Both the position numbers and the translations under genes were made by a program. A model generated the notes under the pieces. It had not been told where the DNA came from and made no database searches. It saw only the letters and a list, made by a program, of their open reading frames with translations. From the IMG/VR virus record IMGVR_UViG_3300042197_003584, positions 1-39,207 of that record: 39,207 nucleotides of DNA; one strand, written 5' to 3'. Shown here piece by piece: positions 2,021 through 15,968 of the stretch. Origin of the DNA: a virus. Position 1 is the first letter of the stretch; every line of letters starts with the position of its first letter.

Positions 2021-2326
2021 ATGTCAAAAAATATAGATGATGTTTATAAAGAAGTAGCTAAAATTAATAAGGATATTCAGGCTTTAGATAAACAAGTATC
2101 AGATGACATAGCACAAATTAAAAAATTCTTCAAAGGTTTTGACAAGAAGCTATCTCTAGTCTTAGAAAAGATACAGGAATTCGAGGTTATAATGGATGCT
2201 GCTGAAATTATAGAAGAACATATGGAGGAAGAAGAAGAAAAATACAATACAGAATGGAATCCTTACGAAGATGAGGATTATGTAGCAGAAGACTATGAGA
2301 GCTATGATGATGAAGAGGATGGCTGA
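2021..2326 (+). CDS. Coiled-coil protein with acidic tail (101 aa)
   Basis: Residues 1-65 form a heptad-rich helix (DVYKEVAKINKDIQALDKQ and following), predicted as a coiled coil. Residues 66-101 are a strongly acidic tail of Glu, Asp and Tyr. A similar acidic tail ends the rIIB-like protein downstream. No enzyme motif is present. A GACGGAG ribosome-binding site precedes the ATG. It may act as a binding or anti-host protein, but nothing in the sequence proves that. Confidence 0.6.
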   Translation: MSKNIDDVYKEVAKINKDIQALDKQVSDDIAQIKKFFKGFDKKLSLVLEKIQEFEVIMDAAEIIEEHMEEEEEKYNTEWNPYEDEDYVAEDYESYDDEEDG

Positions 2327-2559
2327 TGGCGAGTTTAGCTCTAATTATTTCTCTGATTTTTTTGAGCTTAATCATTATTGGTCCGCTTAGTTATATCATA
2401 TGTAGTTTTGATTGGACACCCAAGTTACTCAAATATTTCTTGGCTATATTTTGTATGATTGTTGGTCTATGGGCTATATTTATTCCTGTGCCATTATTTA
2501 AAATACTAGGCTTGATCAACTTTTCTATAGGATTAAAATTGACTTTAAAGGCAAAATAA
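2326..2559 (+). CDS. Small membrane protein, two or three TM helices (77 aa)
   Basis: Nearly the whole protein is hydrophobic. Residues 3-27 and 35-57 are clear membrane spans, and a weaker one runs 58-72. It starts in the TGATG overlap with the previous gene. It is unlike a classical holin because it has no charged C-terminal tail beyond the short KLTLKAK end. Function is unknown. Confidence 0.6.
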   Translation: MASLALIISLIFLSLIIIGPLSYIICSFDWTPKLLKYFLAIFCMIVGLWAIFIPVPLFKILGLINFSIGLKLTLKAK

Positions 2560-2574
2560 AAACACAACTCAAGG

Positions 2575-2603
2575 TTGACAACGGAGTTGGTCGATGGTAT
2601 ACT
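2575..2603 (+). promoter_or_regulatory. Sigma70-type promoter upstream of the rIIA-like gene
   Basis: TTGACA (2575-2580) is separated by exactly 17 bases from TATACT (2598-2603). This is a near-consensus bacterial housekeeping promoter in the only real gap of the region, 43 bases before the rIIA-like start. Transcription would begin near 2610 and cover rIIA and rIIB, suggesting early expression by host polymerase. Confidence 0.85.
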
Positions 2604-2645
2604 TGAGGGATCACAGGACAATTTCACTTTTTGGAGACAGTAGCA

Positions 2646-5312
2646 ATGAAGTTGGCAGATCGCACGGTTGAGATTCATAGTCGCGGGCTTGATAGTTCTA
2701 ATCAGTTCACTATCGCCCAAACTAGCAAAATGTTTAAAATCCTTTCGGACTCTCTTTATTCCGATAAGGTTATGGCTGTTATTCGTGAACTTTCTACTAA
2801 TGCTTATGATGCTCATGTAGCAGCGGGAAACAAGAATCCTTTTAAGGTGACTTTGCCTACTCAAGCCAATCCTAATTTCACAGTACGAGATTATGGCACT
2901 GGTCTTAGTCAAAAGGATATGGAAGAACTGTATACCACATACGGTGCGTCCAATAAGAATGACAGTAATGATTTTGTGGGTTGTCTTGGTCTTGGCTCTA
3001 AGAGTCCGTTCGCTTATACTAAGAGTTTTAGTACCACATCTTACTACAACGGCAAGGCGTATAATTATATTGCTGCTATGGACGAGGGTGGTGTTCCTAG
3101 TCTGAATCTGTTTGGAATCACTGAAACATCTGAGCCTAATGGTCTTGAGATTAGTTTCGCTGTTAAGCAGTATGACTTTACTGAATTCAGTAATAAGAGT
3201 AAAAGAGTTTTCCACTACTTTAAGATGAAGCCGATCATTGAGGGTGGTGTTTGTGATACTCTTAAAGATCACTCGTATTCTCATACTAATACTGTTATTG
3301 AAGGCAAGGGTTGGAAGATCGGACGAGTATCATCTAATCACTATCAATATCCTAGTCATCATTATGGCCCCGGTTCTGGCGTTGTGGCTATCATGGGTAA
3401 TATTGCATATCCTGTCGATGCCACCAAAATTATTGGTGATGAAAAAGAAATCAATAGTAACGATGCTATTCAGCGATGGAATCGTGCTTTTAAGAAAGCG
3501 GACGTTGATAACTGGAAGAATCTAGTCAGAGAGATTCTAAACTCTGGACTTTATCTTGAAATCCAGTTTGGTATTGGTGAACTTGAAATGGATGTTAGTA
3601 GAGAGGGTTTGCAGTACACAAAGAATGTTATCAATGTATTGCGTGAAAGAACCCAGGAGATTTATCTGACGCTCAAGGAGGATATGAGTAAAAAACTTGA
3701 GGCTTGTACCAATCTTGTTGACGCATATCAGACATATTATAATCTGAGCGATCTTGCTGGCGGCTGGACTGCTGGTGCGTCTTGGACTGACACTGATGGT
3801 AAGACTCATGAATTGACCAGTGGTAAAGACCTTGAGTATACTTTCAAGAAAAGTAAGCAGTTGTATGTGTTCAACTTTAGAACTGCTGGCTATCGTTCTA
3901 GGCGTATGGTTTATCTTACCAATCAGATTCATTACCAAACCATACAAGGTGTTGGTGAGTATTATTGGAGCGGAGCCAAGAAAAACGGCAAGATGGCATT
4001 TTTCAGATGTGATGTTAAGGGTGCTGAAACCGCTAAGAAAATCGTAACTAAATATTGCAACACAAATGATTGTTTTGCATATCTTATGATCGATAGCGAT
4101 AATCCAGAAGATTCGTCGAAAGGTTTTGATAAATTGATCAAAGACATTGGTGGCGAATCTAATGTTCTAAATGTTTCTGATTATCGTAGTCTACTGAGCG
4201 GTGGAACCCGCCAGAGTAGAGGGTCAACAGGAACTATTAGTAAGGACGAGATTTTTGCTATCTCTAATCTTGGGGCAGATAAGAACTGTGCGTTACTTGG
4301 TGGAAATGAATTGAATGACTCATCTTATCTTAGAGAGTTGTCTGACGATCTTATGGAATACATCGAAGACGAAGACAACGAGATTGTCTATGTCCCTATC
4401 CTGCGATATGCTTCAGTGGACGGCTATCCAGAGATCCACAAGATTGTGTCACTAAGTCAAAATACTGATACATCTCTTGGTAAGAATCTTTTTGATAGTC
4501 AGAAGATTTTTGCGATCAAGCAAAGTGCTGTAGATAAACTGAAGAAGGAAGGTATCAATCTTGTAAACTTTAATGAGTGGTTCAAGAAATGGGCCGACAA
4601 GATTGTCAACAAGCTCATAGACAAAGTAGCAGTTTATGGCGATATTATCGGATATGTTACGGGCGAATTTAATTGTCAGGACAAAACATTTGGGGACGGG
4701 TATTATTACTACCACTGTAAGTATAGTGATCGTAAAATTGTATATCATATCTTTAACTTGTTTGGTCTAGACTATCGTAAGCATATTCAAAACAGCGATT
4801 TTTGTGATGCTCTGGATCAATGGTTAATGATGGAATTTTTCTCGGTCACTATTCATCGTGATAGGTTTGACATTACTAGATTCAAGAAAGATGACTACTA
4901 TGCTCATATTGCTACAATCTTGAATAAGTATGGTATGAACGGTATTGATCCGTCACAGATCAAAGATAGTCATACTGATCTCAAAAAGGTGAAGTATGTA
5001 CTAGATAATCTTTATGGTGGAGATAATCCGATTACAACATCAAACAAGCATACAAAAATGAGTTCAGATATTATTGCTCAAATGCCCAAGATGACCGATA
5101 TTCGTAAAAATCTTAAAGATGGGGTTGACAGCAATCCGATACTCAAGTATATTGTAGGGACGGTTGATGTTGACGGCGAACTGCGTAAACTATCTGGCAG
5201 CAACCCAATCAAGGTTCATCAGAATAGTTATAACGGTTTGCCAGCGTGGTTCTCTAACATTAGCGATGACAACATTGAAAAGCTAAAGAGTATTGTAGGT
5301 AGTGCATTTTAA
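2646..5312 (+). CDS. rIIA: rIIA-like protein with GHKL ATPase domain (888 aa)
   Basis: The N-terminal 200 residues carry a GHKL (Bergerat) ATP-binding fold. The N-box is ELSTNAYDA (48-56), the G1 box RDYGTGL (81-87) and the G2 loop GCLGLGSKSPF (112-122). This matches phage rIIA proteins, which are membrane-associated and affect lysis timing and exclusion of phage in T4. At 888 aa it is longer than T4 rIIA (about 725 aa), with a long unrecognised C-terminal half. The ATG at 2646 lies nine bases after GGAG; a TTG at 2631 is in frame but has no such site. It is transcribed from the sigma70 promoter at 2575 and sits directly before rIIB. Confidence 0.9.
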   Translation: MKLADRTVEIHSRGLDSSNQFTIAQTSKMFKILSDSLYSDKVMAVIRELSTNAYDAHVAAGNKNPFKVTLPTQANPNFTVRDYGTGLSQKDMEELYTTYGASNKNDSNDFVGCLGLGSKSPFAYTKSFSTTSYYNGKAYNYIAAMDEGGVPSLNLFGITETSEPNGLEISFAVKQYDFTEFSNKSKRVFHYFKMKPIIEGGVCDTLKDHSYSHTNTVIEGKGWKIGRVSSNHYQYPSHHYGPGSGVVAIMGNIAYPVDATKIIGDEKEINSNDAIQRWNRAFKKADVDNWKNLVREILNSGLYLEIQFGIGELEMDVSREGLQYTKNVINVLRERTQEIYLTLKEDMSKKLEACTNLVDAYQTYYNLSDLAGGWTAGASWTDTDGKTHELTSGKDLEYTFKKSKQLYVFNFRTAGYRSRRMVYLTNQIHYQTIQGVGEYYWSGAKKNGKMAFFRCDVKGAETAKKIVTKYCNTNDCFAYLMIDSDNPEDSSKGFDKLIKDIGGESNVLNVSDYRSLLSGGTRQSRGSTGTISKDEIFAISNLGADKNCALLGGNELNDSSYLRELSDDLMEYIEDEDNEIVYVPILRYASVDGYPEIHKIVSLSQNTDTSLGKNLFDSQKIFAIKQSAVDKLKKEGINLVNFNEWFKKWADKIVNKLIDKVAVYGDIIGYVTGEFNCQDKTFGDGYYYYHCKYSDRKIVYHIFNLFGLDYRKHIQNSDFCDALDQWLMMEFFSVTIHRDRFDITRFKKDDYYAHIATILNKYGMNGIDPSQIKDSHTDLKKVKYVLDNLYGGDNPITTSNKHTKMSSDIIAQMPKMTDIRKNLKDGVDSNPILKYIVGTVDVDGELRKLSGSNPIKVHQNSYNGLPAWFSNISDDNIEKLKSIVGSAF

Positions 5313-5337
5313 TTTCACAGGAAAATAGGAGTTTATC

Positions 5338-6204
5338 ATGAGTGTTCCTTTTATGTGGGTTGATGGTAATCTTACGGTGATCCTTAATAACAAGGCTCAT
5401 CAGGTTCTTCCAGATCATATTAATTATCGGCTGATTCTGGAGGCTCTTCCAACTGCTTCTAATGATGAGTTGGCACAGTTGGTTGATCTTGAAAAAGCCG
5501 TTGAGAACTTTAGTCAGGGTATGGTTGAAGTCAAGAACGGCAAGGTGTTGTATCAAGGCGAAGAAGTTCATGGTAGTATTAGTAAGCGTATTCTGGAGTT
5601 TATGAAGAAGGGACTGCCGTTCCAGCCTCTTGTAAACTTTCTGAATAATCTTATGGAAAATCCAAGTATGCAGAGTCAAACTGAACTGTATGATTTCTTG
5701 GAGCATGAATTGCTTCCGATTACTGAAGACGGTTGTTTTCTTGCATACAAGGCTGTGCGTAGTGATTACATGGATAAGTATGCTGGTACTTTTGACAACC
5801 ATGTGGGTAATGTGTGCGAAATGCCAAGATCAAGAGTAGACGATAATCGCAGCGTAGGTTGTTCTAAGGGTCTTCATGCTGGTGCATTGAACTATGTGGC
5901 CGGTTATGGCAATGCTGATCATGGTGACCGCATTGTAATTGTGAAGATTCATCCCAAGGATGTGGTGAGCGTTCCTAGTGATTGTAATCACGAGAAACTT
6001 CGTACCTGTCGATATGAAGTAGTCGGTGAATATCAGGGCGAATTGCTAAAGCCTCTCTACAAGAGTGAGTTTAGTGAGGATTCTTATTACGAAGACGAAG
6101 AGGATAATCTGTATGATGAATACGATGATGCGTACTGGGATCAGTATGATGAAGAAGATGAGGATGATGAATGGGGAGGTGCTGTAGACGATGAGGATTA
6201 TTGA
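5338..6204 (+). CDS. rIIB: rIIB-like protein (288 aa)
   Basis: The protein follows the rIIA-like gene by 25 bases with its own AATAGGAG ribosome-binding site. The central part (about 100-235) matches the rIIB pattern: FLEHELLPITEDGCFLAYKA, a CSKGLHAGALNYV segment and the VIVKIHPKDVVSVPSD strand. In T4, rIIB partners rIIA. The C-terminal 50 residues are almost wholly Asp, Glu and Tyr, an extra acidic tail that could bind basic proteins. The family assignment is firm; the biochemical role in this phage is not known. Confidence 0.88.
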   Translation: MSVPFMWVDGNLTVILNNKAHQVLPDHINYRLILEALPTASNDELAQLVDLEKAVENFSQGMVEVKNGKVLYQGEEVHGSISKRILEFMKKGLPFQPLVNFLNNLMENPSMQSQTELYDFLEHELLPITEDGCFLAYKAVRSDYMDKYAGTFDNHVGNVCEMPRSRVDDNRSVGCSKGLHAGALNYVAGYGNADHGDRIVIVKIHPKDVVSVPSDCNHEKLRTCRYEVVGEYQGELLKPLYKSEFSEDSYYEDEEDNLYDEYDDAYWDQYDEEDEDDEWGGAVDDEDY

Positions 6205-6390: not shown

Positions 6391-7527
6391 ATGTTTAGTG
6401 ATAAGTTGGCTTTTAATCCCTTTGATAAGAATAACGATGTTAACTGCGGTTTTGCTCAAGATGCTAGAGCTAAGTTCCTAGACTCTTTTAAGCAAAGCCA
6501 TATCTTTGTTTACAATGGTAATCCACGCAAGAAAATTAGTAGCATGAATCATTCATCTGGAGATAATGGTCTTGCAGAAGCGGTGAGGGCCAATGTAAGC
6601 AATCACTCAGATGTTTATTTCTACGTTAATGGTGGACGTAAACTTTATGCCATCAAGCAGTTTACTTGTTGTTTCTGCGATATGGATGCTGGTCGTGATG
6701 AACAAGGTAGCTATTTCAAGCCAAGTATTGTGATGCAAAAGAAGAAGGACTTTCTTGATGCTATCAATGATTTTCCAGTAAAACCAAGTTGGGTGGTAGA
6801 TACTCGTAATGGTTATCAGTGCTACTGGATTTTTGATGATGCTAGTCGAAACATTGTGGGTCATAACAAGACCTTCTGGAATGGTCTGCAAAAGAAGCTA
6901 GTGAACTACTTTGGTGGAGATCCCCGAGCCATCAAGCCCAATCAGATTTATCGTGTTCCTTATACTTGGTGGCGTAAGGAATGGGAAAAGAAGGCTCCGT
7001 ATTTTACGAGTCTGCTTCCCGGTTGTACTGGTCAACCGATTAATGTGGCAGATCTTAAAGCGGCCCTTACTGGTCAACCAGCCACTCTACAAATCGTTCC
7101 TGAAAAGTGCAGCGATGAATGGTATAAGGGTTATGCTAAGGCTTATAAGCAGTCTGATATTACTGGTGTTCCAGTGTCGGCCTCTGTTGCTACAGACATT
7201 CTGAACCAACTCAGGCACGAAGAGACGGACAAGCAGATAAAGACGATCTATAATAATCCAGACGCTCTAAAGTATTATCGCACCTATGGTAATCCTATGC
7301 CGGTGATGCCTGTGTCCGATGACGAAAAAGATACGCTACAGACGCTACCAGAGGATACTGGAGACGAGGATATAAACCTTGATGGGTCACAGACGCAACT
7401 TTTAAAAACCGTTGTGGAGTTCCTAAATCAAGTGAGTACTCCTCTCTACTTTAGTAATAATAGATTCCTCTCTAATGCTGCTAAAGAATTGGCCAATAAG
7501 ATTAGCGATAAATTTTGTATCGGATAA
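6391..7527 (+). CDS. AEP/RepB-type DNA primase (378 aa)
   Basis: This looks like a phage primase of the archaeo-eukaryotic superfamily, similar to RepB-like primases, making primers for phage DNA replication. The metal-binding DxD is in FCDMDAG (D97, D99). The segment PSWVVDTRNGYQCYWIF (132-148) matches the substrate-binding strand with the asparagine-glycine turn, and IYRVPYT (186-192) is the expected strand near the active site. The C-terminal 150 residues are not recognised, and no helicase motifs are present. AGGAAAAGG precedes the ATG. It is followed by a tRNA-Gly gene. Confidence 0.75.
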   Translation: MFSDKLAFNPFDKNNDVNCGFAQDARAKFLDSFKQSHIFVYNGNPRKKISSMNHSSGDNGLAEAVRANVSNHSDVYFYVNGGRKLYAIKQFTCCFCDMDAGRDEQGSYFKPSIVMQKKKDFLDAINDFPVKPSWVVDTRNGYQCYWIFDDASRNIVGHNKTFWNGLQKKLVNYFGGDPRAIKPNQIYRVPYTWWRKEWEKKAPYFTSLLPGCTGQPINVADLKAALTGQPATLQIVPEKCSDEWYKGYAKAYKQSDITGVPVSASVATDILNQLRHEETDKQIKTIYNNPDALKYYRTYGNPMPVMPVSDDEKDTLQTLPEDTGDEDINLDGSQTQLLKTVVEFLNQVSTPLYFSNNRFLSNAAKELANKISDKFCIG

Positions 7528-7540
7528 GAACCCTTATCAA

Positions 7541-7611
7541 GCAAGTGTCGTATAATGGTATTACCTTAGATTTCCAATCTAATGACGAGGGTTCGATTCT
7601 CTCCACTTGCT
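7541..7611 (+). tRNA. tRNA-Gly(UCC)
   Basis: A full cloverleaf is visible: acceptor GCAAGTG/CACTTGC, D loop TAATGGTA, anticodon stem TTAGA/TCTAA with loop TTTCCAA (anticodon TCC), and T arm GAGGG-TTCGATT-CTCTC with one G·T pair. T7611 is the discriminator, and CCA is not encoded. The D and anticodon regions closely follow bacterial tRNA-Gly(UCC). It would read GGA codons, common in this AT-rich genome. Confidence 0.95.
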
Positions 7612-7634
7612 TTTCAAACAAACGGAATACAATA

Positions 7635-8054
7635 ATGCATCAAAACGAAGATGACGAAAATTATGATGATGACGAATCATACTATGATAGTCAATATAAA
7701 TATAAGCACTATTTTAAGTTTGATCCTGCTGCTTGGGACGCTTGGGGTAAATGGCTGTATGACGCTATGAAAGAAATAGTTGAAACCAACCCAAACGTCT
7801 GGTATACTCCAACTTACATCGAAGGATGGCCGACCAAAAAGTTTCCTGTGAATAGTTACTTTCCCAATACTGGTAAAGACCAAAAAACTTTCCAGTATTT
7901 GGGGAATAACTATGATGGTCAAGCTATTTGGAAGAAAAAATATTTTGTTAGTAATCCCATACAAAGTATCTATATTGATCATTTAGCCGCTAATGCTGCG
8001 TATTTTGTTAAACAACCACATTACTATAAAGGACTGTTCGATATACTGAACTAA
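7635..8054 (+). CDS. Hypothetical protein (139 aa)
   Basis: No family is recognised. The ATG at 7635 is chosen because an in-frame start at 7515 would run through the tRNA-Gly gene. The N-terminus is acidic (EDDENYDDDESYYD). The rest is rich in Trp and Tyr (AAWDAWGKWLYDAMKE, FQYLGNNYDGQAIWKK), suggesting a compact alpha/beta domain. No catalytic or membrane signal is visible. Confidence 0.6.
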   Translation: MHQNEDDENYDDDESYYDSQYKYKHYFKFDPAAWDAWGKWLYDAMKEIVETNPNVWYTPTYIEGWPTKKFPVNSYFPNTGKDQKTFQYLGNNYDGQAIWKKKYFVSNPIQSIYIDHLAANAAYFVKQPHYYKGLFDILN

Positions 8055-8059
8055 ATATT

Positions 8060-8494
8060 ATGGCAGCAGAAGTATTCATTATAGATGATCTCGACAAGTT
8101 TATAGAATGTACCAGGGTATTGATATATCAAAATTTTGGATCAGATACACGCAAAGATATATTAGAAACAAGTTTTGATATAAATAAATTAGATGCTGTA
8201 GAGCTTCAAGAGCTAGATTCTGTACTGTCTCAAACAGAATGTCTTTTAATGGCTAAGGATTATATTAGGTCACAACAGCATAAAACCAACAAGACTATTA
8301 GGTATCTTATATCTAATAATGAATACATGAAAATGATAGAATGTTTTAATAGTCGTATGGTAAGTAATATGCTTAATAATTTGGTAAACAAAGGAGTACT
8401 AGAAACAGCATATGATGCTGAATCTAATGACTTTATTTTTTGGACTAAAAATGACGACACAAAATCAACTAATCAAAAACCAGAAACCGACTGA
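8060..8494 (+). CDS. Hypothetical helical protein (144 aa)
   Basis: The protein is mostly helical, with a C-terminal part (NSRMVSNMLNNLVNKGVLE, then AYDAESNDFIFWTK) that looks like a winged helix-turn-helix ending in a beta wing. This suggests DNA or protein binding, but the call is by pattern only. It overlaps the next gene by 44 bases in another frame and belongs to the recombination operon leading to RuvB. Confidence 0.55.
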   Translation: MAAEVFIIDDLDKFIECTRVLIYQNFGSDTRKDILETSFDINKLDAVELQELDSVLSQTECLLMAKDYIRSQQHKTNKTIRYLISNNEYMKMIECFNSRMVSNMLNNLVNKGVLETAYDAESNDFIFWTKNDDTKSTNQKPETD

Positions 8495-8927
8495 ACTAGA
8501 CGTACATCTAAAATATAGGTGTCCAGAATGTGCGAGAGATCATTGGCTTGCATTGAGAGAAACTCAGACTAGAGGATTTATTATAGTCTGTGAATGTAGT
8601 ACTATTATCAAGCCAAAGCTAATTAAAGATATCAAAATTCAATATAATAAAAAGATTAAAGCTATTGCGCAACCAGCAGTAGAGACCATAGAAACTATAG
8701 AAATACCAGAACCCGTGGTGAATATTATAGTAGAAAAACCTGAGTTGATTCCGCCAGATAGTCTAATAGATAGTTGTGTTTCTGTTTTACAAACTTATGG
8801 GTTTACTGATACCGAAACTAAAGATTTGATTCATAAAACATACCAACAGCACAGCACCTGTACAGTTAGTGAATTTATTCGATACTGTTTAAAAAATATT
8901 ACTTTGGGAGAAAATAATAATGGCTAA
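8451..8927 (+). CDS. Zinc-finger protein with RuvA domain III-like C-terminus (158 aa)
   Basis: The N-terminus carries a zinc-ribbon-like set, CPEC (24-27) and CEC (47-49). A Pro/Glu/Ile-rich linker runs about 70-103. Residues 104-151 match the small three-helix domain III of RuvA, including the VLQTYGFTDTE turn (compare ALGYKPQEA in RuvA) and VSEFIRYCLK (compare the LIREAL helix). In bacteria that domain binds and activates RuvB. The next gene, overlapping by eight bases, encodes RuvB. I infer a phage adaptor that recruits the motor through a zinc finger in place of the RuvA tetramer. The ATG at 8451 is chosen over upstream starts inside the previous gene. Confidence 0.65.
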   Translation: MTTQNQLIKNQKPTELDVHLKYRCPECARDHWLALRETQTRGFIIVCECSTIIKPKLIKDIKIQYNKKIKAIAQPAVETIETIEIPEPVVNIIVEKPELIPPDSLIDSCVSVLQTYGFTDTETKDLIHKTYQQHSTCTVSEFIRYCLKNITLGENNNG

Positions 8928-9813
8928 TCTTGTTAGACCTTCTACTTTTGATGATGTGATTGGTCAAGAAGATGTTGTACAAAGATTAAAGATTGTGGTG
9001 GCTGGTTGCAAGTCTACAGAATCAGTAATGCCTCATATTTTAATTGACGGGCCTCCGGGACTAGGTAAAACCACGATATCTAGTGCTATTGCTAATGAAC
9101 TAGGAGTCAATCTTTACACTATTAACGCGGCAAACATTCGTAGTGTAAAAAATCTATTGCCGTATCTAATGGGCATTGCTCCACGTTCTGTATTATTTAT
9201 TGACGAAATCCATAGACTACCTAAGATTGTTGAAGAATTTTTATATCCAGTAATGGAAGACTTTGTATTGAATATTGTACTAGAAAGCAAGCCTGAACAA
9301 ATTGATCTACCTATGTTTACTGTGGTTGGGGCTACTACTAGTGGAGGTAGTTTAAGTCAACCATTTTATGATCGGTTTGCAATGAAAGAACATTTGTCTT
9401 TCTATAACAACACTGAACTAGCTAAACTAGCAGAGTTGAACGCCAAAAAGCTCGGACTAAATATTTCTCAAGAAGCTCTATTAGAGATCGCTAAAAGAAG
9501 TAAGGGCACTCCTCGTATCCTTAATGCTAGACTGCAATGGTATAAGAGCTTTGTGAGTTATCATAACAATAACAATTCTTCTGTAGATGAGATTTTTATG
9601 AGTCAGGGTATTGACGACAAGGGACTTGATCTGTATGATAGAATGTATTTAGAGGTATTGAAGAAAAACAAAATGAACCCACTAGGTTTAAAGAGCATAT
9701 CCTCATTAACGGGGATTGCTATGGAAACTATCGAAAATAGCGTTGAGCCATTTTTGATTAGAATGGGCTATGCTGTCAGGACTCCCAAAGGAAGAGTGAT
9801 TGGTAATGTTTAA
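8920..9813 (+). CDS. ruvB: RuvB-like branch-migration AAA+ ATPase (297 aa)
   Basis: RuvB drives Holliday-junction branch migration using ATP. The match covers the family's full order: RPSTFDDVIGQ near the start, Walker A GPPGLGKTT (44-52), Walker B LFIDEIHRL (92-100), LYPVMEDF (108-115), sensor 1 GATT (137-140), the arginine-finger region DRF (151-153), sensor 2 GTPRI (196-200) and a C-terminal winged helix ending in MGYAVRTPKGRV. At 297 aa it is slightly shorter than bacterial RuvB (about 330-350). No RuvA or RuvC gene is seen in the window; the upstream gene supplies a RuvA-III-like domain. It overlaps the HNH gene at its 3' end. Confidence 0.92.
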   Translation: MANLVRPSTFDDVIGQEDVVQRLKIVVAGCKSTESVMPHILIDGPPGLGKTTISSAIANELGVNLYTINAANIRSVKNLLPYLMGIAPRSVLFIDEIHRLPKIVEEFLYPVMEDFVLNIVLESKPEQIDLPMFTVVGATTSGGSLSQPFYDRFAMKEHLSFYNNTELAKLAELNAKKLGLNISQEALLEIAKRSKGTPRILNARLQWYKSFVSYHNNNNSSVDEIFMSQGIDDKGLDLYDRMYLEVLKKNKMNPLGLKSISSLTGIAMETIENSVEPFLIRMGYAVRTPKGRVIGNV

Positions 9814-11254: not shown

Positions 11255-11263
11255 GTGATTATT

Positions 11264-11449
11264 ATGCAAAGATTAGCTAAATGTAATAAAGACCGAATGT
11301 TCTTCGGAGTATGTTGTGGAATAGCCAAACATCTAGGGCTAGATATTAGTATAGTCAGGCTAGGCTTCGTACTGGGGGCTATTTTCACAGGAAGTATGCT
11401 GTTATGGATTTATCTCATAATGGCTATAGTGCTACCATCTGATAACTGA
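11264..11449 (+). CDS. PspC-domain membrane protein (61 aa)
   Basis: The sequence fits the PspC domain almost end to end: RLAKCNKDRMFFGVCCGIAK, then HLGLDISIVRLGFVL, a hydrophobic span and the ending MAIVLPSDN. PspC is an inner-membrane protein of the phage-shock response, which guards the membrane against stress. A phage-borne stand-alone PspC may buffer membrane damage during infection; that is inference. The ATG at 11264 lies eight bases after AGG; a GTG at 11255 is an alternative start. Confidence 0.85.
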   Translation: MQRLAKCNKDRMFFGVCCGIAKHLGLDISIVRLGFVLGAIFTGSMLLWIYLIMAIVLPSDN

Positions 11450-11512: not shown

Positions 11513-12016
11513 ATGTCTACTTTAGACAAAATTATCATAGTCTGCGCATCACTGTGCATAGGATGGGGCTTGAGTGAAAAATATTCTCAACCATTATGTA
11601 AGCCTCCTGTGGTGGCTCCTGTTGTAGAGCCTATTGTTCCTCTCCCAGTCCCAGTGCCAGCGCCTCTGCCGCCAGCACCTAAGCCAGAGCCATCGTATCC
11701 TCAAGTTTTTTTTGATGAATACGATAAAGTGCTTTCTATAGCAAAAGAAAAACAAAAAAGAATAATTGTTATTTTTAGTGCTGATTGGTGTCCTCATTGT
11801 CAAGATCTTAAAAAAGACTTAACAAGCATGTCAATACCACAACAATATCTGCTTTGCATTATCGATATTGACAAAAACAAAGCATTAGTTAACAAATTTA
11901 ATATTTCGGGTCTTCCAACAACCATAGCCATTACATCTAATGAAAAAGAATTATGTAGAAAATCAGGATATCAAAAAAAATCCTATGAGGCATGGTTATA
12001 TCAATGTATCAAATAA
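11513..12016 (+). CDS. Membrane-anchored thioredoxin-like protein (167 aa)
   Basis: Residues 5-20 are a hydrophobic anchor or uncleaved signal. Residues 30-62 are a Pro/Val/Ala-rich linker, then a thioredoxin fold with IFSADWCPHCQDL (active-site CPHC, 93-96) and cis-proline loop GLPTT (133-137). The active domain would lie outside the inner membrane, where it could make, break or shuffle disulfides. The long Pro-rich stalk suggests it spans a gap such as the cell wall. Its ribosome-binding site is strong but sequestered in a hairpin. It overlaps the next, also exported, gene by 13 bases. Confidence 0.85.
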   Translation: MSTLDKIIIVCASLCIGWGLSEKYSQPLCKPPVVAPVVEPIVPLPVPVPAPLPPAPKPEPSYPQVFFDEYDKVLSIAKEKQKRIIVIFSADWCPHCQDLKKDLTSMSIPQQYLLCIIDIDKNKALVNKFNISGLPTTIAITSNEKELCRKSGYQKKSYEAWLYQCIK

Positions 12017-12852
12017 TTTGGATTATCATCGTATTAATGAGTAGCTCCTCTATTTATGCTCATGATAAATATATGCATTTTTATAATACTTATACGGTTA
12101 AGTATGATACTGGTGCTAGGGACAGAGTTATTTCTGTAGGTCTGAATCTAATAGACATACCCCAGATAAGTAATTTAGAACCTTCTAACTCAGTTTATAA
12201 TCAGATATTATCCAGTTCTGAAACAAAGCCTTTCGGAGACGAACACGGAAGGTCTACTAATGCTCACGAAACTGTACATGGTATTAATAATGTACTAAGA
12301 AATAAATACAAAAAAATTTTAAAGAAAAATGTTAATGCTTTTTATGCTGGAGCTAGAAAAGGGATAATTATAGAAAATCCCAAATTAACTATGAGAGATA
12401 TTATTCCTTTCATTCCAGAAGCTGTCAGGGGTTATCGTTTTAATCTATATTTTGTAGAACAACTAGGATCATGGAATGATGTACCAACTTACCCTATGGA
12501 TGAGTGGTCAGCATATATCGCAGGGGCGGAATGTGCTGTGGATGACTATAGGAGGGGGCTTAAAGCGGAGAAGTCTGACTGCGTATCTGGAGCATTAGAG
12601 TTTAGTATTTATTGCACTGCTTTATCTATGGCTATTAAAAATAGAGATTCTGACTTTTGGAAAAATAATACGCAATTTAAACATACTATGAAATATTATC
12701 TTATTAAATCAGAAAAAATATTTTTTGAAGGACAGTCAACATTTCCTTCCGATAAACAAGACAAGTTACTATGGACCTTGAGAGAGCATAATGATACGGC
12801 TGATATGCGTCAATTTTTATTAAATGAATTTGACGGAATATTTGTAGACTAA
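12004..12852 (+). CDS. Secreted HExxH metallopeptidase-like protein (282 aa)
   Basis: The ATG at 12004 gives a clean signal peptide (YQIIWIIIVLMSSSSIYA, cleavage after about residue 19). NAHETVHGINN (86-96) contains the HExxH zinc motif with catalytic Glu 89. The third zinc ligand may be one of the acidic residues in PMDEWSAYIAGAE (164-176). No named peptidase family is recognised. As a secreted zinc peptidase beside an anchored thioredoxin and other proteases, it likely acts in the periplasm or outside the cell. Protease activity is inferred from the motif only. Confidence 0.65.
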   Translation: MYQIIWIIIVLMSSSSIYAHDKYMHFYNTYTVKYDTGARDRVISVGLNLIDIPQISNLEPSNSVYNQILSSSETKPFGDEHGRSTNAHETVHGINNVLRNKYKKILKKNVNAFYAGARKGIIIENPKLTMRDIIPFIPEAVRGYRFNLYFVEQLGSWNDVPTYPMDEWSAYIAGAECAVDDYRRGLKAEKSDCVSGALEFSIYCTALSMAIKNRDSDFWKNNTQFKHTMKYYLIKSEKIFFEGQSTFPSDKQDKLLWTLREHNDTADMRQFLLNEFDGIFVD

Positions 12853-12869
12853 TACTGATAAACAGTATT
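12851..12869 (+). other. Hairpin at the end of the metallopeptidase gene
   Basis: AATACTG (12851-12857) and CAGTATT (12863-12869) form a perfect seven-pair stem with a five-base loop, starting within the stop codon. Only a few T bases follow, so it is a weak terminator at best, or an mRNA-stability or operator site. Confidence 0.4.
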
Positions 12870-12911
12870 TGAATGGGGTATAGTAATATTGTCTATGTTC
12901 GGAGATTCTTT

Positions 12912-13670
12912 ATGAAAAAATTGACCATAATATTTTTATGTACTATTAGTACTCTTTTATCTTCTTGTTTTTCAATTGGTGGGCTTATAGATCCATCAGT
13001 ACCGGATAGTCATTATGTAGAATATGCTAAAAATTTTTATTATGTAGGTAAAATTTATGGATTAAATATAAATAATAAAGATTATTTTGGTTCATGTGTA
13101 GCTATTACTGATAATGTGGTATTAACAGCAGCACATATCGTACAAGAAATGAAAACAGCAAAAGTATTGATTAACAATAGACAAATTAATGTAATCAAAT
13201 CTATAGCCCATCAAGACTTTCGAATAGATAAATTAGGACATAATGATATTGCTATATGTTTTTTAGAAGAAAATATTGGATTAGAATGGTATCCTAGTTT
13301 ATATACAAATAAAAATGAAATTAATAAATTGTGTTGTTTGTCTGGTTATGGGGCTTATGGTACATTTTTTAGTGGTCCAACAAAAACAGATAATCAAAGA
13401 AGAGCTGGATCAAATTATATAGATTATACAGAACTTGGTGTTTTAATATGTACTCCTTCTACGGATAATACGAAAACCGCTTTAGAATTTTTGATTTGTC
13501 CAGGAGATAGCGGGGGTGGCCTGTTTATTGATAATAAATTAGCTGGTATACATTCTTATGTTATTACATTTAAGCCAAGTAAAAAACAAGAAAGTGCGCA
13601 TACTAGAATTAGTGATCATGTAGAATGGATAGAAAAACACAAAAAACTCATCATACAAGAAGGTAAATAG
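12912..13670 (+). CDS. Trypsin-like serine protease lipoprotein (252 aa)
   Basis: The start at 12912 gives a lipoprotein signal, MKKLTIIFLCTISTLLSSC, with lipidation Cys 19. The S1 (trypsin-like) triad is intact: His 75 in VLTAAHIV, Asp 112 in HNDIAICF, Ser 200 in CPGDSGGG. It would be anchored in the membrane with its active site outside the cytoplasm. Its end (LFIDNKLAGIHSYV) closely resembles the second trypsin-like protein at 15968, so the two are likely paralogues with different locations. It follows the metallopeptidase and precedes a subtilase by two bases. Confidence 0.88.
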   Translation: MKKLTIIFLCTISTLLSSCFSIGGLIDPSVPDSHYVEYAKNFYYVGKIYGLNINNKDYFGSCVAITDNVVLTAAHIVQEMKTAKVLINNRQINVIKSIAHQDFRIDKLGHNDIAICFLEENIGLEWYPSLYTNKNEINKLCCLSGYGAYGTFFSGPTKTDNQRRAGSNYIDYTELGVLICTPSTDNTKTALEFLICPGDSGGGLFIDNKLAGIHSYVITFKPSKKQESAHTRISDHVEWIEKHKKLIIQEGK

Positions 13671-13672
13671 TT

Positions 13673-14611
13673 ATGTTATGGAAAAAATTATTTGGTAAAA
13701 AAATAGGCTTATTACCATATATCAGAGAAGATGTTCATTCAATATCCACATCATCTCCTCAAATTTATGGTTGGGAATTGCAGAAATTTGCTATTCCTAG
13801 TGTCTGGTCAAAAACTCAGGGTGAGGGTGTCGTGGTGGCCGTTATAGATACCGGGTGTGACATCTACCATGACGATTTAAAAGAAAACGTGCTGGTAGGC
13901 AAGAATTTTATTAACCCCGGTCATGCCCCGCTGGACGTTGTGGGTCATGGATCTCATGTTGCTTCAACTATAGCAGCATCAGATAATGGTACTGGTATTG
14001 TGGGGGTTGCTCCTAAAAGCAAAATTTTGCCGATTAAAAGCTTAGGTGATGATGGCTCGGGTAATATGAGAGATATTGCTGACGGTATTCGTTGGGCGGC
14101 TGATCAGAAAGCGGATTTAATTACCATGAGTTTGGGGTCTCCGGGTCCGGCTAAAATGATAGAAGATGCGATTAATTATGCCGTCAGTAAAGGCTCTGTT
14201 ATTTTTTGTGCGGCTGGTAACGATGGACCAGCAACAGACATAATGTATCCCGCTAAATATGAGCATACTGTCGCTATTGGTGCTATAGATGAAGATCTTA
14301 ATAGAACTAATTTTACATGTAGTGGAGACACATTAGACTTTTTAGCTCCTGGACATAATATTCTGGGATGTGTTCCGGGTAATAGATACGCTTTAATGAG
14401 TGGCACTAGTATGAGCAATCCTTTTGCTGTTGGTTGTGCGGCATTGGTTCTATCTTATTATAGAAAAATCCACAGATCTGTTCCTAGAACCTCAGAAGAC
14501 TATATACGTATTTTTAGAGAACATGCTATTCCATTAAAAAATGCTCAATACTATAACCAAAAAAAATATCAGGGATATGGCATTATTAACGTATCTGAGA
14601 GTCTAAAATAA
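13673..14611 (+). CDS. Subtilisin-like serine protease, S8 family (312 aa)
   Basis: All S8 signatures are present: Asp 59 in VAVIDTG, His 92 in VGHGSHVAS, oxyanion Asn 183 in CAAGNDGP and Ser 246 in SGTSMSNP. There is no signal peptide and only a short N-terminal part before the catalytic domain, so it probably lacks the usual prodomain and may act in the cytoplasm. Family and activity are firmly supported. Its base composition is slightly richer in G and C than its neighbours, hinting at transfer. Its last base overlaps the next ATG. Confidence 0.93.
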   Translation: MLWKKLFGKKIGLLPYIREDVHSISTSSPQIYGWELQKFAIPSVWSKTQGEGVVVAVIDTGCDIYHDDLKENVLVGKNFINPGHAPLDVVGHGSHVASTIAASDNGTGIVGVAPKSKILPIKSLGDDGSGNMRDIADGIRWAADQKADLITMSLGSPGPAKMIEDAINYAVSKGSVIFCAAGNDGPATDIMYPAKYEHTVAIGAIDEDLNRTNFTCSGDTLDFLAPGHNILGCVPGNRYALMSGTSMSNPFAVGCAALVLSYYRKIHRSVPRTSEDYIRIFREHAIPLKNAQYYNQKKYQGYGIINVSESLK

Positions 14612-14948: not shown

Positions 14949-15968
14949 ATGGCTAAGGGTCTAGATGTAGGCACATCTTTTATTGTTATGGCTTATCAAG
15001 ATCAAAATGATGACTCTTATGAGCTAATGAAATATGTAGATTTTAGAGATGCTTTTTATGTGGTTAAGCCCAACAATATCATTGCTCAAAATATGATGGA
15101 GAAAGGGTTGCAAGGTAAGGTATTCGTGAAAGATGAAGATGGGTCTTTTATTATTCTAGGTCAAGATGCAATAGATAAAGCTTTAGAGAGAAATGAATCA
15201 GCGAATAGGCCGATGTATAGAGGTATTATTTCGGCTAAGGAAAAAGACGCAAGAAGGGTATTGGCTTTTATTATTAGTCAAGTTATTGGCAAGCCAGCTT
15301 ATGTAGACGAAAAGGTAGTATATTGCGTACCAGCACAGCCTATTGATCAAGACAATGAAGATTTTGATGTTGGCTATCACGAAGATGTTGTCAATACTAT
15401 TTTAAGTAAAATGAATTATAAACATGTGAGAGCGATTAATGAAGCCGAGGCATTATGTTATTCGGAGTTAGGTGGTAGTAATTATACTGGCATTGGGCTA
15501 TCTTGGGGTGCTGGTATGGTGAATACGTGTATTATGCTAAATGGTGAGCCGATCTCAGTATTTTCTACTACTAAATCTGGAGACTGGATTGATCGTATGG
15601 CTGCGGCTGCTACAGGAGAAACGGATGGAATAGTCCAAGCAGAGAAGGAGTCAGGCAAATTTACCATAGGACAGTCCAATGACAATCCTATCCTGTCCGC
15701 TGTATCGTCTTATTATGAACGCTTAATTGATTATACAACTAAACATCTAACTATTGCTTTGAGTGAGCATAAATTATTACCTAAGTTTAGAAAACCTTTA
15801 GATATTGTGTTTGGAGGAGGTACGTCTCAAGCAAATGGCTTCCAAGAAGTTTTTGCAAAAAAATTAGTAGAGAATGAGTTTCCTGTAAAGCTCAACAAAG
15901 TATTTCAGGCTCGTGATCCTTTACATGCCGTTGCTCGTGGATGTTATATCGCAGCGAAGATTTTATAA
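14949..15968 (+). CDS. Actin/Hsp70-superfamily ATPase, ParM/MreB-like (339 aa)
   Basis: The actin-fold motifs come in order: phosphate 1 GLDVGTSF (4-11), the connecting AINEAEALCYSE segment (162-173) with the catalytic Glu, phosphate 2 GIGLSWGAGMVN (181-192), and the adenosine motif DIVFGGGTSQANGF in the last quarter. Length fits ParM, MreB and related filament proteins. It probably binds ATP and may form filaments for DNA or virion positioning. It sits between a membrane protein and a cytoplasmic trypsin-like protease whose ATG overlaps its stop, which suggests coupled expression. Confidence 0.85.
   Translation: MAKGLDVGTSFIVMAYQDQNDDSYELMKYVDFRDAFYVVKPNNIIAQNMMEKGLQGKVFVKDEDGSFIILGQDAIDKALERNESANRPMYRGIISAKEKDARRVLAFIISQVIGKPAYVDEKVVYCVPAQPIDQDNEDFDVGYHEDVVNTILSKMNYKHVRAINEAEALCYSELGGSNYTGIGLSWGAGMVNTCIMLNGEPISVFSTTKSGDWIDRMAAAATGETDGIVQAEKESGKFTIGQSNDNPILSAVSSYYERLIDYTTKHLTIALSEHKLLPKFRKPLDIVFGGGTSQANGFQEVFAKKLVENEFPVKLNKVFQARDPLHAVARGCYIAAKIL

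Follow-up and report, generated by a model that had tools for sequence, protein, structure and literature searches.

How would a phage RuvB be brought to its DNA when the gene beside it does not encode a RuvA? RuvB and the RuvA tetramer are taught as an inseparable pair, and the locus that raises this question lies in an IMG/VR virus record of 39,207 bases, analysed here over its whole length (the window). On the plus strand, an ORF of 158 aa (8451–8927; ATG at 8451, last stop base 8927) is followed by a RuvB ORF of 297 aa (8920–9813), and the two share 8 nt (ATGGCTAA). An initial annotation of this DNA had placed the pair and its overlap correctly, and had proposed a two-part motor for branch migration or fork remodelling in which the upstream protein, here called the adaptor, replaces RuvA by means of a zinc finger and a C-terminal block resembling RuvA domain III.

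By its sequence, the downstream product is a true RuvB. It was annotated as complete, and this holds at 8920–9813: the Pfam domains RuvB_N, AAA_lid_4 and RuvB_C each scored over their cut-offs, as did NCBIfam NF000868 (303.5 bits, cut-off 282), with TIGR00635 slightly below its cut-off (283.9, cut-off 299). Identity to E. coli RuvB is ~40%. At least 332 relatives were collected from IMG/VR; RuvB matches in the phage collection reached at most 41% identity, and some of these look like host DNA by appearance. Using residue roles from PMC10272136 and PMC10071043, the Walker A lysine, the Walker B DE and the arginine finger (E. coli R174) were found to be invariant in 59/59 related phage RuvBs, and the C-terminal DNA-binding arginine hairpin (RTPKGR in the window) was kept with small variation. 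The pre-sensor-1 hairpin is four residues shorter than that of E. coli in all 59, the position of E. coli I148 being among those missing, and some of the 59 carry short insertions elsewhere in the same hairpin.

The layout of the adaptor was determined from its ORF, an alignment of 45 non-redundant homologues and an AlphaFold2 model. An N-terminal basic zinc ribbon with four cysteines (residues 9–66, 8475–8648, from the homologue alignment and weak structural matches) is followed by a variable linker (residues 67–102, 8649–8756, from homologue comparison) and a three-helix C-terminal domain (residues 103–151, 8757–8903, from profiles and the AlphaFold2 model), all on the plus strand. Searches with the single 158 aa sequence gave no matches. 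The annotated zinc finger was borne out by the alignment, in which C24, C27, C47 and C49 are invariant in 45/45 homologues and form knuckles of the types C-x2/4-C and C-x-C, both on beta strands (AlphaFold2 pLDDT 92). P13, Y22, W32, G117 and E122 are also invariant, the last two within the C-terminal domain. Mean pairwise identity among the homologues is 48% in the ribbon, 14% in the linker, which ranges from 10 to 59 residues, and 36% in the C-terminal part; the mean net charge of the ribbon is about +4.6. Structural matches to the ribbon were weak and generic (ZitP, LysW and ribosomal zinc ribbons; best Z 3.7), and a BFVD structure search returned no useful match.

RuvA_N, the OB fold that forms the junction-binding core, was not found in the adaptor ORF by domain search, in agreement with the annotated lack of a RuvA DNA-binding core, and the adaptor is therefore not a RuvA. 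Using tblastn with two different adaptors as queries, no relative was matched in cultured phages. The single match in bacterial genomes was an 11.4 kb contig (RFVO01000059.1) in a freshwater Chitinophagia MAG, carrying the same adaptor–RuvB pair. This contig is probably a phage contig binned with its host, and it gives a possible hint of Bacteroidota hosts.

The likeness of the C-terminal block to RuvA domain III, as initially annotated, was confirmed at the level of sequence and predicted fold, with profile search, profile–profile comparison and the AlphaFold2 model in agreement. When the adaptor family profile was searched against all PDB sequences, RuvA domain III took first and second place (1ixs_A, E=0.0015; 1ixr_A, E=0.0071), and five more RuvA sequences were matched, including 7pbp, 7pbl, 1bdx and 1cuk. 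As a yardstick, Thermus RuvA domain III finds the E. coli domain III at E values of 0.0012–0.012 and M. tuberculosis RuvA at 0.7–0.9; by this sequence measure, the adaptor profile value is as good as that between the Thermus and E. coli domains. Comparison of the adaptor C-terminal domain with RuvA domain III using hhalign gave a probability of 89.6% (E 1.9e-6). The domain profile scored 13.4 bits against the Thermus domain III and 15.7 bits against that of E. coli, both above the maxima of 300 shuffles of each (1.8 and 9.4 bits, respectively). The check that had been suggested against the RuvA C-terminal family came out in part: RuvA_C was the Pfam family most often matched by adaptor homologues (9/45, best E 0.0043) and, with E=1.1e-4, matched a homologue encoded beside RuvB in a different phage, but its curated cut-off of 24 bits was never reached, the best scan giving 21.2 bits.

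The AlphaFold2 model (pLDDT 85) places three helices at residues 103–151. Its ten best PDB matches were RuvA domain III by Foldseek and by VIA-align alike, the latter with Z up to 7.2 and an rmsd of 1.5 Å over 52 residues. Since such Z values can arise by chance among small helical domains, the case for domain III is built on sequence, fold and gene neighbourhood pointing the same way. Taken together, the adaptor–RuvB observation exceeds chance.

Conservation of the pair in other phages was evident. With all loci pooled, the adaptor lies just 5′ of RuvB in 118/145 distinct phage RuvB genes and is absent in 27. Among 93 distinct loci, gene order is kept as rIIB (85), the gene at 7515–8054 (92), g8060 (93), adaptor (80) and RuvB (93). 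The gene just 5′ of the adaptor, g8060 (8060–8494, plus strand), is thus a member of the conserved block around RuvB, and it and the gene at 7515–8054 are possibly linked to the function of the pair. The adaptor, used as an independent query with a closer subset of the 45-row alignment, retrieved 121 relatives. RuvB was directly 3′ in 80/80 testable fetched loci, and the adaptor was never seen without RuvB; ten of the loci from this query were flagged by the script solely for stop-to-stop ORF overlaps of 60–75 bases. At some loci the adaptor and RuvB lie in the same reading frame.

At adaptor-less loci, g8060 abuts RuvB and there is no space between them for an adaptor. A moved or hidden copy was sought in three adaptor-less records (L010, 229 kb; L012, 192 kb; L051, 95 kb) and not found. 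A maximum-likelihood tree of 86 rows (quick search) gave 7 changes in adaptor presence or absence, at least 3 of them forced by well-supported branches; FastTree on a larger set gave 15–16 changes and 16 adaptor-less clades. The simplest reading is that the adaptor was lost repeatedly, with ~16 lineages keeping RuvB without it; transfer is the alternative.

Other genes of the window were recorded alongside this block. Homologues of rIIA and rIIB (2631–6204) adjoin it, and a protein at 6391–7527, kept in 57/93 loci, weakly matches phrog_3123 and a polymerase/primase PHROG. An HNH gene and a methyltransferase lie 3′ of RuvB, in an order that is not conserved among the 93 distinct loci. Further on are a phage-encoded PspC-domain protein (11255–11449; PF04024, E 1.7e-17), a run of thioredoxin-like, trypsin-like and subtilase-like genes (11513–14611) and an actin-like protein of the Volactin family (14949–15968; PF25216, E 3.1e-60).

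The adaptor-less lineages bear on where the adaptor would bind. In RuvB, helix alpha-3 and the pre-sensor-1 hairpin form the binding site of RuvA domain III (PMC9477746, PMC10272136), and an adaptor docking in the same way would lead to the expectation that adaptor-less RuvBs are relaxed at the hairpin. RuvBs were clustered at 95% identity, giving 23 adaptor-less and 86 adaptor-bearing clusters. In the 23 adaptor-less clusters, the rate of deviation at conserved positions was 0.143 inside the hairpin and 0.020 outside it (ratio 7.2). Subsets of the same size drawn at random from the adaptor-bearing clusters had a mean ratio of 2.0, and 0/1000 were as high as 7.2. At positions 137 or 139 in E. 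coli numbering, chosen once a first set of 8 cases had been looked at, residues were polar in 11/23 adaptor-less vs 6/86 adaptor-bearing clusters (Fisher P=2e-5), with relatedness partly controlled in the hairpin statistics. Position 137 alone was polar in 5/23 vs 0/86. Counted by clade, 7/16 adaptor-less clades were polar at 137/139 (P=6e-4, clades compared with clusters) and 9/16 retained hydrophobic residues there, and among the adaptor-less loci found once the pattern was known, 4/11 were polar at these positions (P=0.014). The decay of the hairpin with adaptor loss supports, as evidence from sequence, binding of the adaptor to RuvB at the hairpin.

The genetic setting was examined in large related records (92–238 kb), at most 23 per search, which may be incomplete, so that absences are provisional. 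RecA/UvsX was present in 21/23. RuvA_N and RuvC were each found in 0/20, and a UvsW-type helicase (phrog_9690), the T4-type sliding clamp gp45 and Pfam PolA and PolB each in 0/23 (including L010, L012 and L016). One 238-kb record holds UvsX, DnaB, primase, exonuclease and a PHROG DNA polymerase all together; close to its endonuclease VII gene lies an ATP-dependent DNA ligase. A polymerase at positions 2295–3914 of record L248 was detected by phrog_405 alone. These phages thus appear, from their gene content, to run a UvsX-type recombination pathway with RuvB in place of T4's UvsW, whose absence is provisional. Endonuclease VII is encoded in 16/23 records, usually 8–20 kb upstream of RuvB. The HNH nuclease, initially put forward as a candidate partner resolvase, did not hold up in that role; it occurs in 43/93 loci, usually about 2.3 kb away, and was placed outside the adaptor–RuvB unit because its position is not conserved.

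We consider it probable that the pair is a phage branch-migration or fork-remodelling motor in which a zinc-ribbon adaptor, rather than RuvA, tethers RuvB. RuvB, given its conserved motifs, would assemble on duplex DNA as the usual AAA+ ring. The domain-III-like module of the adaptor would dock where RuvA domain III does, at helix alpha-3 and the pre-sensor-1 hairpin, a step supported by fold, gene pairing and the joint decay of the hairpin. The basic ribbon, on its flexible linker, would tether or load the ring at a recombination or replication intermediate, supplying the target through contact with DNA or with a protein of the phage. RuvA domain III has been described as the nucleotide exchange and ATPase-activating domain of RuvB (PMC9477746), and because it activates the RuvB ATPase, a tethered, isolated domain III could stimulate the ring without the RuvA tetramer; the adaptor may thus take over the loading and ATPase-stimulating job of RuvA without a junction-binding tetramer. 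The motor would act in a UvsX-type pathway in which no UvsW was detected, and the nuclease more likely to cut the junctions is endonuclease VII.

The two-part motor is well supported in that adaptor loss goes with decay of the RuvA-docking hairpin. The initially proposed replacement of RuvA is weakened as an obligatory one: with ~16 lineages keeping RuvB without it, the adaptor is not always needed. The missed RuvA_C cut-off and the weak ribbon matches also count against the adaptor as part of a motor, as does the fact that host RuvA could be used. A fuller account is more tentative, and we regard it as close to evenly balanced, leaning towards doubt: a RuvA-less RuvB machine in which a zinc-ribbon protein that keeps nothing of RuvA but its docking domain would both load and regulate RuvB, at stalled forks or at intermediates made by UvsX, standing in for RuvA as well as UvsW. 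Lineages that lose the adaptor would change to another mode of RuvB recruitment.

Several other explanations of the pair were weighed. The phage RuvB might partner with host RuvA while the adaptor merely regulates or competes, which we think unlikely. The persistence of RuvB in adaptor-less lineages would fit such a partnership, and cross-species complementation between RuvA and RuvB is known (PMC9477746); yet the four docking-hairpin residues, including the I148 position, are missing from all 59 phage RuvBs, and decay of the hairpin upon adaptor loss would not be expected were host RuvA still using it. This same decay points to the phage RuvB as the partner of the adaptor, and so argues against a decoy or inhibitor that captures host RuvB or blocks host RuvAB, for which the place beside phage RuvB would be secondary. 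An isolated RuvB-binding domain has the shape expected of a competitor, but the adaptor is never seen without phage RuvB, and we judge a decoy quite improbable.

Whether the three-helix domain is instead an unrelated UBA/CUE-type fold, its pairing with RuvB having some other cause, turns on the searches described above. UBA/CUE domains do match the model (Z 3.9–4.8) and the Pfam cut-off was missed, but they fall behind RuvA domain III, which came top in sequence searches, structure searches and the tally of Pfam matches, and the neighbouring gene is RuvB; this reading is very unlikely. Least probable of all is that the pair is no branch-migration motor but a clamp-loader-like ATPase comparable to T4 gp44/gp62. 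The clamp-loader profile phrog_168 matches RuvB and nothing else in 23/23 records, a result best read as cross-matching because RuvB-specific domains are present and gp45 is not found in these records. As the winged-helix domain and DNA-binding hairpin specific to RuvB are conserved, RuvB scores lie far above those of clamp loaders and the partner protein carries RuvA domain III, the clamp-loader reading was dropped.

The tethered motor that we favour can be set against known systems. What it shares with bacterial RuvAB (PDB 1IXS, 1IXR, 7PBL–7PBT, 7X7P/Q) is a RuvB in which every ATPase and DNA-contact motif is present, and an adjacent gene encoding a domain III of three helices attached by a flexible linker. 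Unlike RuvA, the adaptor has no domains I and II, which form the junction-binding tetramer, and carries a zinc ribbon instead; the docking hairpin of its RuvB is shortened, and RuvC was not found in the 20 large records. In T4, branch migration in the UvsX pathway falls to UvsW, a superfamily 2 helicase. The pathway expected here is likewise UvsX-type recombination, paired with endonuclease VII, whereas the candidate motor is an AAA+ RuvB ring. The T4 gp44/gp62 clamp loader also has a small partner gene beside an AAA+ gene, and PHROG clamp-loader profiles match RuvB, but it differs in the points given above. In a survey of Holliday junction processing in jumbo phages, phage RuvC was described without a RuvB-like ATPase (Iyer et al. 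2021, PMC7824862); those large phages likewise process junctions with enzymes of their own, endonuclease VII among them, and the converse is seen here, RuvB without RuvC.

In the open-access literature, no description was found of a phage RuvB with such a zinc-ribbon partner. What is known is a true RuvB; what is new is a partner that is not a RuvA yet carries domain III. If the reading is true, a system with only the docking domain would tell which of RuvA's functions are indispensable, junction binding on the one hand or ring loading and ATPase stimulation on the other, and the two-part system would be a minimal test system for them. It would also close a gap concerning how branch points are shifted in large phages that lack UvsW, and the recurring presence and absence of the adaptor would be a natural experiment on the RuvA–RuvB interface. 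A large family of uncultured phages carries its own RuvB, usually with the adaptor, and seems to move DNA crossovers with a machine that dispenses with RuvA.
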